This document shows positions 18,993-28,629 of a DNA stretch of 64,000 bases, piece after piece (within the stretch, counting starts at the first letter, position 1; every line of letters starts with the position of its first letter). Origin of the DNA: Leucobacter sp. cx-42. Its GTDB lineage: Bacteria; Actinomycetota; Actinomycetes; Actinomycetales; Microbacteriaceae. The DNA lies in assembly GCF_014529985.1 (NCBI RefSeq), contig NZ_JACVMU010000010.1, forward strand, positions 62,001-126,000, read 5' to 3'. The position numbers were made by a program, and so were the translations under genes. Below the pieces are notes generated by a model, which did no database searches, was not told the DNA's origin, and saw nothing but the letters and a program-made list of their open reading frames with translations.

Positions 18993-19005
18993 AATCGGCT
19001 TGTCG

Positions 19006-19079
19006 TAGCTGAGGCGGGACTCGATCCCGCGACCTCACGATTATGAGTCGTGCGCTCTAACCAGCTGAGCTACTCAGCC
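19006..19079 (-). tRNA. tRNA-Met (CAT), elongator type
   Basis: The 74-nt cloverleaf reads on the minus strand. The anticodon loop is CTCATAA, and the T-arm is CGGGATCGAGTCCCG. The acceptor pairs GGCTGAG with CTCAGCT and includes a G-U at the end. CCA is not encoded. It is identical to the copy at 19334-19407. Confidence 0.93.
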
Positions 19080-19108
19080 ATATTCTCTGCAAGAGAGAAA
19101 CAAGCCAG

Positions 19109-19180
<72 letters not shown>

Positions 19181-19295
19181 GTAGTTATCTTGCGACAACC
19201 GTTCTATCTTAACAAGCACCATCACCGGTGCGAAATCCCACACACACGGCGTGTCACAAGGCGACCACCTGCAGAAAAGCAGACACAAACAACAA

Positions 19296-19318
19296 AACCC
19301 CCGCCAAAAGCGGGGGTT
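19296..19318 (-). terminator. Terminator after tRNA pair 2
   Basis: Arms AACCCCCGC/GCGGGGGTT at 19296-19304 and 19310-19318 are followed leftward by TTTGTTGTTTG. Each Thr-Met pair therefore has its own terminator. Confidence 0.85.
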
Positions 19319-19333
19319 CTGCGCGACTCTTCG

Positions 19334-19407
19334 TAGCTGAGGCGGGACTCGATCCCGCGACCTCACGATTATGAGTCGTGCGCTCTAACCAGCTGAGCTA
19401 CTCAGCC
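19334..19407 (-). tRNA. tRNA-Met (CAT), second identical copy
   Basis: All 74 nt match the copy at 19006-19079. The flanking spacers differ. Confidence 0.93.
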
Positions 19408-19436
19408 ATACTCGGCCCGAAGACCAAAAGAGTCAG

Positions 19437-19508
<72 letters not shown>

Positions 19509-22653: not shown

Positions 22654-23409
22654 CTACAGCCCAGCAACGCGCGAGAGGAATTCCTTCGTCTCGGGATGCT
22701 GCGGGTTTTCGAAGATCTGCTCGGGGGTTCCCGATTCGATGAGGCGACCCTTCGAGAGGAAGACGACGCGGTCTGCGACCTTACGCGCGAACGACATCTC
22801 GTGGGTGGCCATGACGATGGTCGAGCCCGACTGCTTGAGTTCGCCTACGAGGTCAAGGACCTCCCCGACGAGCTGCGGATCGAGCGCGCTCGTGATCTCA
22901 TCGAGCAGAAGCAGGCGCGGATCAGTCGCGAGCGCACGCACGATCGCCACGCGCTGCTGCTGACCACCAGAGAGACGGTCGGGGAATTCCTTCGCTTTCG
23001 CGCCGAGGCCAATGCGCTCGAGGAGTTCCATGCCGCGCTTCTCTGCGTCGCGCTTCGAGACGCCGAATACCTTGCGGCTTGCAAGGGTGACGTTGTCGAG
23101 CACGGAGAGGTGCGGGAAGAGGTTGTAGTGCTGGAACACGACGCCAACCCGGGCGCGCACGCTATCAACGTTCGCGCGGGGGTCGGTGATGTCTTCGTCA
23201 CCGAGGAAGATCTGACCGTCATCTACCCGCTCAAGCAGGTTGATGGTCTTCAGCAGGGTCGACTTACCCGAGCCACTCGCACCGATGAGCACGACGACCT
23301 CGTGCGCGTTGACATCGAGATCGATGCCGCGCAGGACCGGGGTCTCACCGAACCACTTCTGGACGCCACGGACGCTGAGGACGGGCGTTGTTGCCTGGTC
23401 GGCACTCAT
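22654..23409 (-). CDS. Polar amino-acid ABC transporter ATP-binding protein
   Basis: This is a 251-residue GlnQ/HisP-type ATPase. It has Walker A GASGSGKST, Q-loop VVFQHYNLFPHLSV, signature [15 protein letters not shown], Walker B LLLLDEITSALDP and switch His in MATHEMSFARKVAD. Its start overlaps the permease stop by 4 nt. It energises uptake through the permease and binding protein encoded immediately upstream. Confidence 0.95.
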   Translation of the reverse strand: MSADQATTPVLSVRGVQKWFGETPVLRGIDLDVNAHEVVVLIGASGSGKSTLLKTINLLERVDDGQIFLGDEDITDPRANVDSVRARVGVVFQHYNLFPHLSVLDNVTLASRKVFGVSKRDAEKRGMELLERIGLGAKAKEFPDRLSGGQQQRVAIVRALATDPRLLLLDEITSALDPQLVGEVLDLVGELKQSGSTIVMATHEMSFARKVADRVVFLSKGRLIESGTPEQIFENPQHPETKEFLSRVAGL

Positions 23410-24281
23410 ACCTGACCACCAATCTGCTCGCGGCGCTGTGCACGGGCGGTGTACCAGTCAGTCACGCGGATCATCGGCCACGACAGCAGCACGAAGAAGA
23501 TACCCGCGACGACGTACGGCGTGAAGTTGTAGGCGCTTGCGACCTCGATCTGGGCGGCGCGGATCGCGTCAACCGCACCGAGCACCGAGATCAGGCCGAC
23601 GTCCTTCTGCATGGACACGAAGTCGTTCATGAGCGCGGGCGTGACCTTGCGGACGGCCTGCGGCATGACGACGAGGCGGAGCGTCTTCGCGTGGCTCAAG
23701 CCGAGCGAGCGCGCTGCCATGCGCTGTGAGGGGTGCACGGCTTCGATACCAGCGCGAAGCACCTCTGCGATGTACGAGGAGTAGGTCAGGGTCAGCGCGA
23801 TTGCGCCCCAGACCTGCATGGGCAGGTGACCGACGAAGCCGAGACCGGGCAGACCGAAGCCAACCAAGTACAGGACGAGCAGCACGGGAATGCCACGGAA
23901 GAAGTCGGTGTACAGAGCTGCGCCAAGGCGGATCGGGGTGAAGACCGCGCCCTTGAGCGTACGAGCGATCGCGAGCAGCGAGCCGAAGATCGCCACGAGA
24001 ATCGAGGTGAAGAACAGCACCTGGACGTTGAGCCAGAGGCCCTTGAGAATCTCGGGGGCCGAGGCCTTTGCGATCTCCCAGTCGAAGAACGAGCGCTTGA
24101 CGTCTTCCCAGCCGGGGCTGTTGACGAGCGCGATCCAGACAACGATCGCGAAGACGATCGTGCTGAGGATGCTGATGGCGAGCGACTTAACGCTCTGCTT
24201 GCGACGGAACGCACGGCGCCCGACCTCTACCTCACTGGGTACAGGTCGGGCGCCGTGGTCACTTGAAGTCACTGAAGACAA
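23406..24281 (-). CDS. Amino-acid ABC transporter permease
   Basis: This is a 291-residue HisM/GlnP-type permease. The EAA-like loop is in YIAEVLRAGIEAVHPSQRMA. A TTG at 24281 is the likely start, with an AAGG about 12 nt upstream; a GTG at 24272 is possible. The soluble N-terminus of about 40 residues is longer than usual. Binding-protein, permease and ATPase genes follow in that order. Confidence 0.93.
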   Translation of the reverse strand: MSSVTSSDHGARPVPSEVEVGRRAFRRKQSVKSLAISILSTIVFAIVVWIALVNSPGWEDVKRSFFDWEIAKASAPEILKGLWLNVQVLFFTSILVAIFGSLLAIARTLKGAVFTPIRLGAALYTDFFRGIPVLLVLYLVGFGLPGLGFVGHLPMQVWGAIALTLTYSSYIAEVLRAGIEAVHPSQRMAARSLGLSHAKTLRLVVMPQAVRKVTPALMNDFVSMQKDVGLISVLGAVDAIRAAQIEVASAYNFTPYVVAGIFFVLLSWPMIRVTDWYTARAQRREQIGGQV

Positions 24282-24294
24282 TTCGTGAAAAGCC

Positions 24295-25131
24295 TTACTT
24301 CAGAACCGGAGCGCCGCTGTTGTCAGCGATCCACTTCTCAGCGAGCTCATCGAGCGTGCCGTTCTCACGAAGGGTGTCGATTGCCTCGCTCACGGGCTTC
24401 GTCAGCGACGAATCCTTTGCAAGGAGCACCGAAAGCTTGTCGCCAGCCTGCGAGCTTTCGATCTGGCCAACGAGCTTGCCGTTCTCGAGCACGCCGTACG
24501 CGTTGTAGAACGCGGTGGGGATGTCGGTGACGAGCGCGTCGATGGTGCCAGCCTGGAGCGCCATGACTGCGTCCTCAGTGCTGTTGAAGATCTGGGGGTC
24601 AACGCCCACAACTTCCTTGACAACCTTGATCGAGGTCGAAGCTGCTGCAACACCGAGCTTGACGTTCTTCAGGTCAGCGATCGATGCAACACTTGCTGCC
24701 TTCGAATCTTCGGTGGTGACAACAGCCTGGCCGGTCTCGTAGTACGGCGTCGAGAAGTCGACAGCGTTCTCACGCTCGGGCGTAGCCGAGTACTGCTGGA
24801 TGTTGAAGTCGAAGTCCTTCGGACCCGGCGCAATTGCCGCGTCGAAGGGGGTGCGGGTCCAAACAACCTCGTCCTTGGCGAAGCCAAGCTCGTCAGCGAT
24901 TGCGTACGCAACGGCTGCTTCGAGGCCCTCGCCCGACTCGGGGTCATCATTCTCTACCCACGGCGAGTACGCCGGGTTGCCGGTAGCAATGGTGATCTTG
25001 CCCGGGGTAACGGTCTCGAGGCCGTGAGTGGTCTCTGCTGCCGTGTCAGCGCCTGCACACGACGAGAGCGCGAGCAATGCTGCGAGGGCGCCCGCTACTG
25101 CGGACGAACGACGAAGGAACTTGCTGTTCAC
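24295..25131 (-). CDS. Amino-acid ABC transporter substrate-binding lipoprotein
   Basis: This 278-residue family 3 solute-binding protein starts at GTG 25131 after GGAGACAAACA. The lipobox LSSC (Cys27) predicts a lipid anchor. The core shows the expected order: ITIATGNPAYSPWV, GLEAAVAYAIADELGF, DFSTPYYETGQAVV and DALVTDIPTAFY. The ligand is probably a polar amino acid but cannot be specified. Confidence 0.93.
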   Translation of the reverse strand: MNSKFLRRSSAVAGALAALLALSSCAGADTAAETTHGLETVTPGKITIATGNPAYSPWVENDDPESGEGLEAAVAYAIADELGFAKDEVVWTRTPFDAAIAPGPKDFDFNIQQYSATPERENAVDFSTPYYETGQAVVTTEDSKAASVASIADLKNVKLGVAAASTSIKVVKEVVGVDPQIFNSTEDAVMALQAGTIDALVTDIPTAFYNAYGVLENGKLVGQIESSQAGDKLSVLLAKDSSLTKPVSEAIDTLRENGTLDELAEKWIADNSGAPVLK

Positions 25132-25189: not shown

Positions 25190-25621
25190 CTACTCGGTCT
25201 CGAGACGCCAGTCGGCAAAGTCGAAACCTGGCGTAACCATGCAGCTCACGAGGACATTTTCGCTGCCGGGGTTGGTGCGCTGCCAGACCCCTGCGGGCAC
25301 GAGTACCTGCTGCTTCGCGCCAGGGGTTCCTGGGGCGCCGAGCAAAATCTTCTCGCCGTCGACCGGGTTCTCTCCCGTGCCGCCGAGCTGCAGTTCAAGG
25401 GGGCCGGGACCGTGCCACAGCCACATCTCGTCTGACGAGACGACGTGCCATTCAGAGCGGTCACCGGCGGGCAGCCAGAAGTGAATGAGCGTCACTGCGG
25501 GGCGCAGACCGCCGGCGGTTTCAATCGCATCGGTCGCCGTGTACATGCGGCGGTAGTAGCCACCTTCGGGATGCGGTTCAAGGCCGAGCTCAGTAATCGG
25601 ATCGTATGCTGCGTCAGTCAT
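25190..25621 (-). CDS. DUF985 cupin-fold protein
   Basis: This 143-residue protein shows the DUF985/YML079w-like pattern. It begins with LGLEPHPEGGYYRRMY, then HFWLPAGDRSEWHVVSSDEM and WHGPGPLEL, and ends with QRTNPGSENVLVSCMVTPGF and DFADWRL. ATG 25621 is used with AAAGAG nine bases upstream. Members are sugar-isomerase-like cupins of uncertain activity. It lies 47 nt downstream of the hydrolase-deaminase fusion and is probably co-transcribed. Confidence 0.88.
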   Translation of the reverse strand: MTDAAYDPITELGLEPHPEGGYYRRMYTATDAIETAGGLRPAVTLIHFWLPAGDRSEWHVVSSDEMWLWHGPGPLELQLGGTGENPVDGEKILLGAPGTPGAKQQVLVPAGVWQRTNPGSENVLVSCMVTPGFDFADWRLETE

Positions 25622-25668
25622 CTGCTGCACTCTTTCTGGTGGAGAAGTCAGTCGTGGGGTGCGGATCG

Positions 25669-28629
25669 CTACGCGCGGAACCGCTCAACGCCGGCAACGA
25701 TCGTGCGGCGGCACGTGCCAGCGCCAGCCTCGACGAGCTCCGCGAGAGCCGCGTCGGGGTCGGAAGCGTCGATGTCGAAGAACGCGAGGTCGGCGAGGGC
25801 ACCGACGGCGAGCTGGCCGATCCGCTGCGGACCAACGCCGAGACCGAGGGCGGTCGCGCCGCCGAGGGTCGCCGCATTGAACAGGCGCTGGTGTAGGTCG
25901 TGGTCGCCGTAGCCCTGCTCGCGCGCAATCTTGTAGAGCAACTCGACGTCAGCGAGCGGGTCAAGCGACGGCGAGGAAGACAGTGAGTCAGTGCCGACGC
26001 AGATGAGGTTGCCCTCTCGCAAGTAGGCAGCGACGGGAGGCATGTCGAGGCCGATGACCTCGTTCGAGCGCGGGCAGAGCGCGACCGAGGTGCCGCGGGC
26101 ACGCAGGAGCGAGCGGTCGCGGTCAGTCATGTAGACGCCGTGCGCGATGTGGCAGTCGGGGCCGAGCACCCCAAGGTGATCGACGAACTGGGTTGAGCTC
26201 ACACCGACACCGCGGTTGCGCAGCGCGCGGAAGCTCTCAGCGCCCATCTCTGCCCACTCATCGTGGTTCGAGTGGTGTTCGAGCTCCATGTGCGCTTCAG
26301 CGAGGTGGATGTGCAGGCGCATGCCGCGGCCGCGCACGAGGTCGGGGACGTCGAGCAGCGGCTGCACTTCAAGCGAGTACGGGGCGTGCGGCGAGACGCC
26401 AACCCCTGGGGTCGCGGGCATAGTGTCGAGCTGCAGCGCGGTCTGGTCGCGGCCGGTCTGCTGCCACTCGTCGTTGCTCCAGCCCATGACCTCCCAGTAC
26501 GCGATGCCGTGCATGCCGGCGTCGTGCAGGGCGGTCGCCGCGGAGGTGTCCGTCACAACATCTGCCGCAGCAGTCGTACCGCTCGCGAGCGCGAGGCGCG
26601 CGCCCTGCGCTGCAGAGGCAGCCCAGTCGTGCACCTGATGGTCGTAGATCGCGTCAAACGCGAGCGCCCAGTCGTCGAAGCCGTTGTAGGTGCGCTTCGC
26701 AACCTCAGCCATGCTCGTGTACTGCAGGTGTGTGTGGCCGTTCACGAGACCGGGCGTGAGCACGCCGTCCCAGTGCTCTTCTGCGAAGTCGATGCCGTTA
26801 TCGCGCAGCGACTGCACGACCCAGCCGCGGTCACCAACGTGCATGATGCGGTCACCGCGCACGGCGACGGCGCCGTTCACGATACGTGGGCCGGTCACCG
26901 GGATGACCAGGTCAGCGCTGTAGACGGTCACCGTTGGGGTTTCGGCCGGCTTCGCAGGCTTGCCGGCCTGCTCGGGTACTGCGGTGCGATCCGCACCCGT
27001 ATCGCTCGGGGCAGCCTGGGCTTGGTAGCGCTGGCTGCGCCAATCAGCGGCGGCGTGCGCCTGGGCGGCGTTCTTCGTGTCGACCGTACTGCCGTGGGTC
27101 GCGAGCGCGAGGCGTGCGATGCGCTGCTCTTGATCGCTCGAGAGCGGGAAGATGCCCGGCGCGAGCTTCGCGTCGCCGAGCGCTCCCATGTCGAGGAGCT
27201 GGCGCAGTGCGGCAAGCTGGGCGGCGAACGAGAGATCCATGATCTCGATCGGGTTGCCGCCGCTCGCCGTGTAGTTCACTCCGTAACCGTGGGCCAAGAT
27301 GATGACTTCGTGCGCGGATCCCGCAGCCCCAACGTCGACCGTGCTGATCTGGGGTGTGAGGTCGTGCATGGCGCGGCCCTCGAAGTCGATCTCGGCGTCA
27401 ACGCCGCCAGCGACCGCGAAGATCGTGCCGGGGCGAGCGTGACGTGCGAGGGGCAGGTCGACCGTGTCGCGAACACCAGACGCCGAGACGATCACGTCAG
27501 CAATCGCGGCGGCCTCTGCGGCGAGCGCGACGTCGTAACCGTCGGCTTCAGCGGTGAGGGCACGAACGGTGTCGAGCTCTGCAACGATGACCTTCGCGCC
27601 GAGGGCGCGGGCGTGACGGGCGACGCCTGCACCGACCGGGCCGTAGCCGAGCACGAGCCAGGTCGCGTCTGCTGTCTGGGGTACCGGACGCATCGCGCGG
27701 AGGGTTTCGAGCTCATCAACGATCGCGAAGACGCAGGTCTGACCCGTGCCGTGCAGGTTGTCGAAGAGGGTCTTCACTGCCGAGTCGTTCACGGGAACGA
27801 CGGGAATCTCGAGTTCGCCGTCTGCGTGCATGTGGCGGAGCGGGCGGACACCGCTCGTGGTCTCCTCTGCCGCACCGCGCAGTGAGGCGCGCGCCTCGGG
27901 CATGAGGTGCGCGAGGCGAATGAGGTGGGCTCCGTCGTCAATGAGCAGCTGCGGCTGCCAGCGAATGAGGTCACGCGCTTGCTCTGCCTCGTGTTCTGCG
28001 TCGGCGTCGTCGCTCGCGAGCACGACGATGCCGCGGGCGCGCAGGGCTGCTGCCGCCTCGGGATCAACCTCGTTTGCTGGCGCGAAGACGCGCACGTCAG
28101 CGCCAGCGCGCGCAAGCTCCAGCACGAGTACCGCGGTCTTGGGTTCGAGCACGAGCACGACACCGATGCGCACACCGCGCAGGGCGCCGCTCACTGCGAA
28201 CTCCTCTGCCAGCTCGCGCGTGATCGGCATGTACTGGTGCGACCACTCGATGCGTGCGGCACCGCGCTTCGCGAGCGAATCGCCCTCGGTTGCTGTGGCC
28301 GTGGGGCCGACCAGGGCTGCGCCCTCGGCGATGCGGATCGGGCCGGTCGCTGCTGCTGCCGTTTCTGCGTCTGCGTCTGCTTCTGTGGGCAACGCTGCGG
28401 CTCCCGCCGCGAACACCACCTCTACGTCAGCAGGCACCGGGGCACCCTGTTCAAGCACCGTCACGCGCGCGCCCATGCCCGCGAGCATCTGCTGCAGCGT
28501 CGCGGTCATTTCGGGCGCTGCCGAATCAGGCATGACACCCATGCGGGTGCCTGCGATCAAACGGTTCGTTGAACGGTTAAACCGGGCGACCAGTCGCTCG
28601 GCACGGTACACATCAGAAGCGGGACTCAC
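25669..28629 (-). CDS. Bifunctional fusion: S-adenosylhomocysteine hydrolase-like domain + amidohydrolase (SAH/MTA deaminase-like)
   Basis: This is a 986-residue two-domain protein. Residues 1 to about 545 resemble SAH hydrolase: LLIDDGAHLIRL, AEETTSGVRPL, and the catalytic pattern NDSAVKTLFDNLHG with Lys286 and Asp290 spaced as in the family. The NAD Rossmann motif GYGPVGAG begins near 328, with GYGVNYT further on. The usual C-terminal Lys/Tyr tail that clamps NAD is not visible. After a Pro/Ala linker, residues of about 585-986 form an amidohydrolase: His632/His634 in VNGHTHLQY, HIHLAEAHMELEHH, HIAHGVYMTD and VGTDSLSSSPSLDP, as in SAH/methylthioadenosine deaminases. The pair would suit deamination of SAH to S-inosylhomocysteine and its hydrolysis. 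The GTG start lies within a hairpin. Confidence 0.85.
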   Translation of the reverse strand: MSPASDVYRAERLVARFNRSTNRLIAGTRMGVMPDSAAPEMTATLQQMLAGMGARVTVLEQGAPVPADVEVVFAAGAAALPTEADADAETAAAATGPIRIAEGAALVGPTATATEGDSLAKRGAARIEWSHQYMPITRELAEEFAVSGALRGVRIGVVLVLEPKTAVLVLELARAGADVRVFAPANEVDPEAAAALRARGIVVLASDDADAEHEAEQARDLIRWQPQLLIDDGAHLIRLAHLMPEARASLRGAAEETTSGVRPLRHMHADGELEIPVVPVNDSAVKTLFDNLHGTGQTCVFAIVDELETLRAMRPVPQTADATWLVLGYGPVGAGVARHARALGAKVIVAELDTVRALTAEADGYDVALAAEAAAIADVIVSASGVRDTVDLPLARHARPGTIFAVAGGVDAEIDFEGRAMHDLTPQISTVDVGAAGSAHEVIILAHGYGVNYTASGGNPIEIMDLSFAAQLAALRQLLDMGALGDAKLAPGIFPLSSDQEQRIARLALATHGSTVDTKNAAQAHAAADWRSQRYQAQAAPSDTGADRTAVPEQAGKPAKPAETPTVTVYSADLVIPVTGPRIVNGAVAVRGDRIMHVGDRGWVVQSLRDNGIDFAEEHWDGVLTPGLVNGHTHLQYTSMAEVAKRTYNGFDDWALAFDAIYDHQVHDWAASAAQGARLALASGTTAAADVVTDTSAATALHDAGMHGIAYWEVMGWSNDEWQQTGRDQTALQLDTMPATPGVGVSPHAPYSLEVQPLLDVPDLVRGRGMRLHIHLAEAHMELEHHSNHDEWAEMGAESFRALRNRGVGVSSTQFVDHLGVLGPDCHIAHGVYMTDRDRSLLRARGTSVALCPRSNEVIGLDMPPVAAYLREGNLICVGTDSLSSSPSLDPLADVELLYKIAREQGYGDHDLHQRLFNAATLGGATALGLGVGPQRIGQLAVGALADLAFFDIDASDPDAALAELVEAGAGTCRRTIVAGVERFRA

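Follow-up and report, generated by a model that had tools for sequence, protein, structure and literature searches.

The fused gene and its recurrence

An S-adenosylhomocysteine hydrolase (SAHH)-like domain and a cog0402-type deaminase are joined, per domain searches, as the N- and C-terminal parts of a single chain in Leucobacter sp. cx-42, and this fusion recurs as one form of a widespread gene pair and is not itself the unit of interest. The fused gene (25669..28629, minus strand) was called as a single ORF in the 64,000-nucleotide stretch of DNA analyzed here (the window), with a GTG start and a reading frame uninterrupted over 986 codons, i.e., a 986 aa product. The first-pass annotation had called the gene a fusion of these two domain types, and the fusion is real: both domains were matched, and four further genomes carry it, namely the sister strain Leucobacter sp. 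cx-328 (L153; protein 97% identical to the window protein), Microbacterium sp. MPKO10, Rarobacter faecitabidus, and G242. A sequencing frameshift or assembly artefact was rejected, since the sister assembly and other genera are also fused.

Most of the relatives retrieved encode the halves in two neighboring genes. In a maximum-likelihood tree built from 54 selected deaminase domains, the fused proteins fall into two distinct groups, and the supported branches force at least two changes for the fusion; on this tree, the fusion arose at least twice. When 396 genomes of the phylum were scanned, G690 was, among the matches listed, the sole genome outside the order with adjacent halves, and 97 plasmid records match part of the query with none covering 80% of it.

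All parts of the fused gene lie on the minus strand. An N-terminal extension (residues 1-117; 28279..28629) is predicted by an AlphaFold model, with moderate confidence, to be alpha/beta over residues 1-76. Its residues 15-27, ARFNRSTNRLIAG, are similar to a motif found in several relatives, approximately RxFxRxTNxLIAG (window 28279-28629). The SAHH-like domain follows (residues 118-531; 27037..28278; profile matches, alignment, and model), then a linker mostly of low model confidence (about residues 514-566; 26932..27090; pLDDT below 50 over residues 514-564), and finally the deaminase domain (Amidohydro_1, cog0402 type; about residues 567-986; 25672..26931), identified by its profile match and metal-site residues. 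The model, built on an alignment of nine rows, has a mean pLDDT of 60.8, good in the SAHH half and poor in the deaminase half, and was used for the SAHH half only, not for the deaminase or the domain arrangement.

An SAHH-like half with three histidines replaced

The N-terminal half has the SAHH fold with its NAD domain, judging from profile matches and the predicted model. Residues 117-531 pass NF004005, a model named adenosylhomocysteinase (305 bits against a cut-off of 275), PF00670 and PF05221 match as well, and VLEPKT, GGV, and GNP are the signatures of this half; the equivalog for canonical AhcY, TIGR00936, is missed by the fused protein (265.4 vs. 497.6 bits). When aligned with known SAHHs, the half retains Lys286, Asp290, Asn291, Asp232, and Glu256, and its NAD site reads GYGPVGAG, a GxGxxG motif. 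In mouse SAHH numbering, His55, His301, and His353 are replaced by Val160, Gly409, and Asn459, and Phe302 by Val410. The earlier statement that both halves keep their catalytic motifs is thus correct for the deaminase half and for Lys286/Asp290 and GYGPVGAG, but not for the SAHH half as a whole, given its three lost histidines; every motif that had been named (Lys286/Asp290, GYGPVGAG, His632/His634, HIHLAEAH, and VGTDS) is present. The absence of a C-terminal Lys/Tyr tail, also pointed out in the first-pass annotation, is genuine, yet archaeal and Thermotoga SAHHs usually lack this tail too (PMC10978960, in part).

The same replacements run through the family. His55, His301, and His353 are absent in 81/81 aligned sequences, while the equivalents of Asp131, Thr157, Lys186, Asp190, and Asn191, the NAD glycines, and the ExK of the nucleobase-binding motif are kept in all 81, and that of Glu156 in 79. 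L123, whose C-terminal part is out of frame, and pieces of L141 were left out of this alignment; the totals of 81 here, and of 79 and 152 below, all include the window sequence. The window protein is 38-53% identical to family members other than the sister, for the pairs measured. A decayed pseudo-enzyme is disfavored, as identical positions are changed in 81/81 sequences.

According to the available part of PMC4647836, His55 and His301 hold and activate the attacking water in SAHH, with His55 as the general base and His301 as a gate or stabilizer, and the residues retained here act in oxidation at 3', in binding of the 2'-OH, and in proton transfer at C4'. HxExK is the motif of SAHHs that prefer S-inosylhomocysteine (SIH), the canonical motif being HxTxE/Q (PMC10978960, in part). 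The window protein has VxExK, that is, the ExK without the histidine of the full fingerprint. Because all three positions, those of the water-activating histidine, its partner His301, and His353, are changed in 81/81 sequences, a plain SIH hydrolase is doubtful, and the automatic adenosylhomocysteinase label of this half is doubtful as well. For the pathway as such, an archaeal-like SIH route is a reasonable conjecture, and a plain hydrolase is less likely.

The deaminase half

The Amidohydro_1 match covers residues 623-980 of the fused protein, a region that includes HIHLAEAH and VGTDS. His632, His634, His775, His830, and Asp881, which we take to be the HxH, H, H, D metal site of amidohydrolases, are each conserved in 79/79 deaminase sequences, an alignment from which rows of 380 aa or less and then three L130-type deaminases had been left out. 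The curated SAH/MTA deaminase model NF012037 is far from reached (42.4 vs. 779 bits). By profile comparison, the nearest solved structures are 4dyk, 4gbd, the 8-oxoguanine deaminase 7ww2, and others with no clear winner, and the MTA/SAH deaminase 4f0r scores slightly lower than these. As far as such comparisons go, the substrate of the deaminase cannot be read from homology.

A conserved gene block with an importer

Downstream of the fusion, on the same strand, the window encodes a Cupin_5 (DUF985) protein (25190..25630; domain search), an SBP_bac_3 solute-binding protein (24295..25131; domain search), and a polar amino-acid type ABC permease (23406..24281) and ATPase (22654..23409), both identified through domain and tblastn searches. 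The last three adjoin one another, as in a polar amino-acid importer. Elsewhere in the window (19005-19508) lies a tandem duplication of a pair of tRNA genes, tRNA-Met with tRNA-Thr, the two copies being 328 bases apart.

The block, in the order SAHH-like gene, deaminase, Cupin_5, SBP3, permease, ATPase, is conserved in Microbacteriaceae, Demequina, Actinomycetaceae, and Bifidobacteriaceae, with Microbacterium, Curtobacterium, Leifsonia, Actinomyces, Trueperella, Bifidobacterium, and Gardnerella among the named hosts. We examined 164 loci, two of which gave no deaminase match and 21 of which were duplicates, leaving 141 unique loci. The SAHH-like gene is directly upstream of the deaminase in 137 of these (4 fused and 133 separate, with a 4-base start-stop overlap in 87 of the separate pairs). 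Cupin_5 is found downstream in 101/137, and all three importer genes are present in 127/137; of the remaining ten, some stop at a contig edge, and L081, L082, L155, and L203 seem genuinely importer-less. Because similarity to the fused protein was the basis on which relatives were retrieved, the sample is enriched in loci that have both halves, and these fractions are not natural frequencies. The genes flanking the block vary between genera (16 loci, judged from ORF beginnings), and a tblastn search found none of the block neighbors at five canonical ahcY loci (L090-L094). The block is presumably one transcript. Nine upstream regions compared with Rfam at the gathering threshold yielded tRNAs only and no riboswitch, and 12-mer counts upstream, a weak test for a shared operator, gave strings that seemed to be part of the sequence coding for the N-terminal extension.

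Arg120 of the solute-binding protein is kept in 152/152 sequences and Asp203 in 146/152 (window included, duplicates kept). In HisJ-type proteins, these positions presumably bind the alpha-carboxylate and alpha-ammonium of amino acids, respectively, and their retention suggests an importer ligand with an amino-acid head.

In two loci of the Bifidobacteriaceae group, the block contains a PNP_UDP_1 gene in opposite orientation (L075 8253-9116 and L074 8262-9161); the L075 gene is MTA/SAH-nucleosidase-like per domain scan, and the L074 copy was judged by eye. A contig labeled as a Clostridiales metagenome bin (L165) carries the block without Cupin_5, through either transfer or mis-binning.

Other SAH routes in the host and its relatives

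The first-pass annotation had recommended a search for a canonical full-length ahcY elsewhere in the genome, and the host turned out to have neither ahcY nor LuxS. Canonical ahcY scored above the cut-off in 0/54 Leucobacter genomes, host included. luxS is present in 50 of the 54 and is missing from the host, its fused sister, G431, and G433, the last two being poorer assemblies. In 6/6 other Leucobacter compared (L245-L248, L250, and L251), luxS is flanked by a nucleosidase gene and by a DadD-like deaminase gene adjoining uppS; the host (L149 6666-7248) and the sister (L249) have the same neighbors with luxS missing and no tblastn trace of it at E 1e-3. The host also has a purine nucleoside phosphorylase, a nucleosidase, and a separate DadD-like deaminase. 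With ahcY and LuxS, the two routes searched, both absent, no candidate other than the fused gene is visible for converting SAH to homocysteine in the host lineage.

This situation is not general. By hand tally of the order sample, a further SAH route exists in at least 47 of 49 pair-bearing genomes (canonical ahcY in at least 22, LuxS in 25), and among the matches listed, only the host and G366 have neither. Among the other fused genomes, ahcY occurs in MPKO10 and LuxS in both Rarobacter and G242. In the Demequina group, at least 21/29 pair-bearing genomes also have canonical ahcY and 7/29 have luxS (hand tally), which leaves replacement of ahcY unsupported as a general role. Among the matches listed, eight genomes of this group are without ahcY: in six, luxS is divergent and at most about 340 bp from the block matches, one more has it about 4.4 kb away, and the last has no luxS. 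This proximity links the block with SAH metabolism but does not reveal its role there.

Tandem paralogues and related subfamilies

At six loci (Leucobacter G398, G399, G423, and G441, a Roseateles plasmid, and G690), a His-complete, SIH-type SAHH with HLEAKT directly adjoins a His-less one with VLEPKT, and a deaminase is close by in five of the six. The G441 cluster sits on a 6.5-kb contig. The G690 cluster has an SBP3 importer, and the L130 (G399) and Roseateles clusters have a sugar-type importer and a LacI regulator, with a nucleoside hydrolase in addition in Roseateles. Since the two paralogues stand in tandem, they may differ in function, with the His-less enzyme doing something that its His-complete neighbor does not.

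Two other SAHH-like types were seen. In L084-L089 and L133, His55 is kept, and Asp131, Asp190, and His353 are changed to Asn, Glu, and Asn. In Rubrobacter radiotolerans and genomes of its phylum (L234 and L236-L244), His55 is lacking, with P[IV]EAKT, Gly or Ala for His301, and His353 kept, and there is no deaminase in the stretch fetched.

Proposed role and alternatives

Our tentative reading, which we consider possible rather than probable, is an import-coupled breakdown of an adenosyl amino acid, in which deamination would be followed by NAD-dependent elimination by the fused module. The fusion would then be a two-step module heading an import-coupled operon. The compound taken up by the SBP3-type importer would bear a free alpha-amino-acid group, the most likely candidate being SAH or a closely related S-adenosyl amino acid; the C-terminal half would convert adenine to hypoxanthine by deamination; and the NAD-bound N-terminal half would oxidize the 3'-OH of the inosyl product and expel the 5' thiol (homocysteine) by beta-elimination. 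Lacking the water-adding histidines, this half would be more lyase-like, or alternatively a 4',5'-unsaturated nucleoside might be passed to a partner. The substrate, the SAH deamination, and the elimination chemistry are what we infer from these genes, and 3'-oxidation and elimination without hydration follow from the pattern of residues kept and lost. To our knowledge, no activity is known for any member of the His-less family.

We count in favor of import-coupled breakdown the block in 127/137 loci, the lack of its neighbors at the five canonical ahcY loci, the repeated origin of the fusion, the Arg and Asp of the solute-binding proteins, the invariant ExK (81/81), the retained 3'-oxidation residues, the luxS genes near the block, and the nucleosidase-like gene inside it in L075. 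Against it stand the NF012037 score of only 42.4 vs. 779 bits, the other SAH route already present in at least 47/49 pair-bearing genomes, the His-complete paralogue beside the His-less one in Leucobacter, Roseateles, and G690, the Asp203 missing in 6/152 solute-binding proteins, and the sugar-type importer in L130 and Roseateles, which together with the nucleoside hydrolase fits a nucleoside without an amino acid. A fuller claim, that the His-less family named adenosylhomocysteinase, widespread in actinobacteria, is in fact a different enzyme, an NAD-dependent nucleoside lyase acting after the deaminase in an S-adenosyl-amino-acid import operon, with the fusion the host's sole route from SAH to homocysteine after luxS loss, strikes us as doubtful in its entirety.

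The bacterial, one-chain version of the Methanocaldococcus route raised in the first-pass annotation, i.e., an SAH deaminase joined to an ordinary SIH hydrolase for recycling the cell's own SAH, with other residues replacing the histidines, seems to us unlikely. What stands of it is the ExK motif, the fused deaminase, the lack of canonical ahcY throughout the 54 Leucobacter genomes, and the loss of luxS from a locus that keeps it in 6/6 others. However, no family sequence (81/81) has a histidine at the His55 or His301 position, nearly all pair-bearing genomes (at least 47/49) have another SAH route, the remaining fused genomes keep LuxS (Rarobacter and G242) or ahcY (MPKO10), and the luxS loss could be mere genome shrinkage.

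We are similarly skeptical that the His-less half works as an NAD enzyme catalyzing another reaction, be it 3'-dehydrogenation, C4'/C3' epimerization, or nucleobase release from a 5'-modified nucleoside other than SAH. The invariant 3'-OH and NAD residues beside a rebuilt 5' side of the site would fit such an enzyme, as would the tandem paralogues in one cluster and the sugar-type importer, LacI, and nucleoside hydrolase of Roseateles, and nucleobase release is a side reaction in all set-ups in the available part of PMC10978960. The SBP3 importer with amino-acid residues at most loci speaks against it, and luxS and nucleosidase neighbors at some loci point to SAH-type substrates instead.

Animals have SAHH-like proteins devoid of hydrolase activity, and the loss of three histidines would likewise suit a non-catalytic NAD or nucleoside sensor regulating the deaminase, but this is very improbable because a sensor would be expected to drift at catalytic positions, whereas the Lys186, Asp190, Asn191, and Asp131 equivalents and the NAD glycines are kept in 81/81 sequences despite 38-53% identity.

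Relation to known systems and significance

Set beside canonical AhcY, the SAHH-like half shares the fold, the NAD domain, and the Lys186/Asp190 equivalents, and differs in lacking the tail, in its three lost histidines, and in the replaced HxTxE/Q. The M. jannaschii SIH hydrolase and the SIH-preferring SAHH of Thermotoga maritima differ from the fusion protein at the His55, His301, Phe302, and His353 positions; the window protein, by contrast, is actinobacterial and deaminase-fused, with an importer in its gene block. The C-terminal half has in common with the SAH/MTA/5'-deoxyadenosine deaminases (DadD, TM0936, and 4f0r) the Amidohydro_1 family and the complete metal site, but forms a distinct subgroup (CPRSN, GTDSLSS) far below the NF012037 cut-off, and the host carries its separate DadD-like gene elsewhere. 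The importer has the same composition (one solute-binding protein, one permease, one ATPase) and ligand-site Arg and Asp as polar amino-acid ABC importers, whereas its partner enzymes act, by homology, on nucleosides.

PMC10978960, in its available part, covers the SIH route for archaea and Thermotoga, and cites a report of SAH deaminase activity and SIH in Streptomyces flocculus, an actinobacterial precedent for SAH deamination; the same part describes no fusion or importer for that system, and the two Streptomyces SAHHs tested did not cleave SIH. A literature search, mainly of openly accessible journals, retrieved no recognizable description of the fusion, the gene block, or a His-less SAHH.

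If import-coupled breakdown is true, bacteria would take up SAH-type nucleosides and salvage them along a route associated until now chiefly with methanogens and Thermotoga, using an SAHH fold with changed chemistry. There is also a consequence for annotation, in that His-less proteins pass NCBI models named adenosylhomocysteinase: five of six family proteins scanned pass NF004005 or NF004009, with the sixth short by 1.2 bits. A genome-scale model of Bifidobacterium longum BB-46 includes an adenosylhomocysteinase gene that might connect SAH with homocysteine (PMC8660834, in part), and, judging from its family, that gene would be a His-less member.
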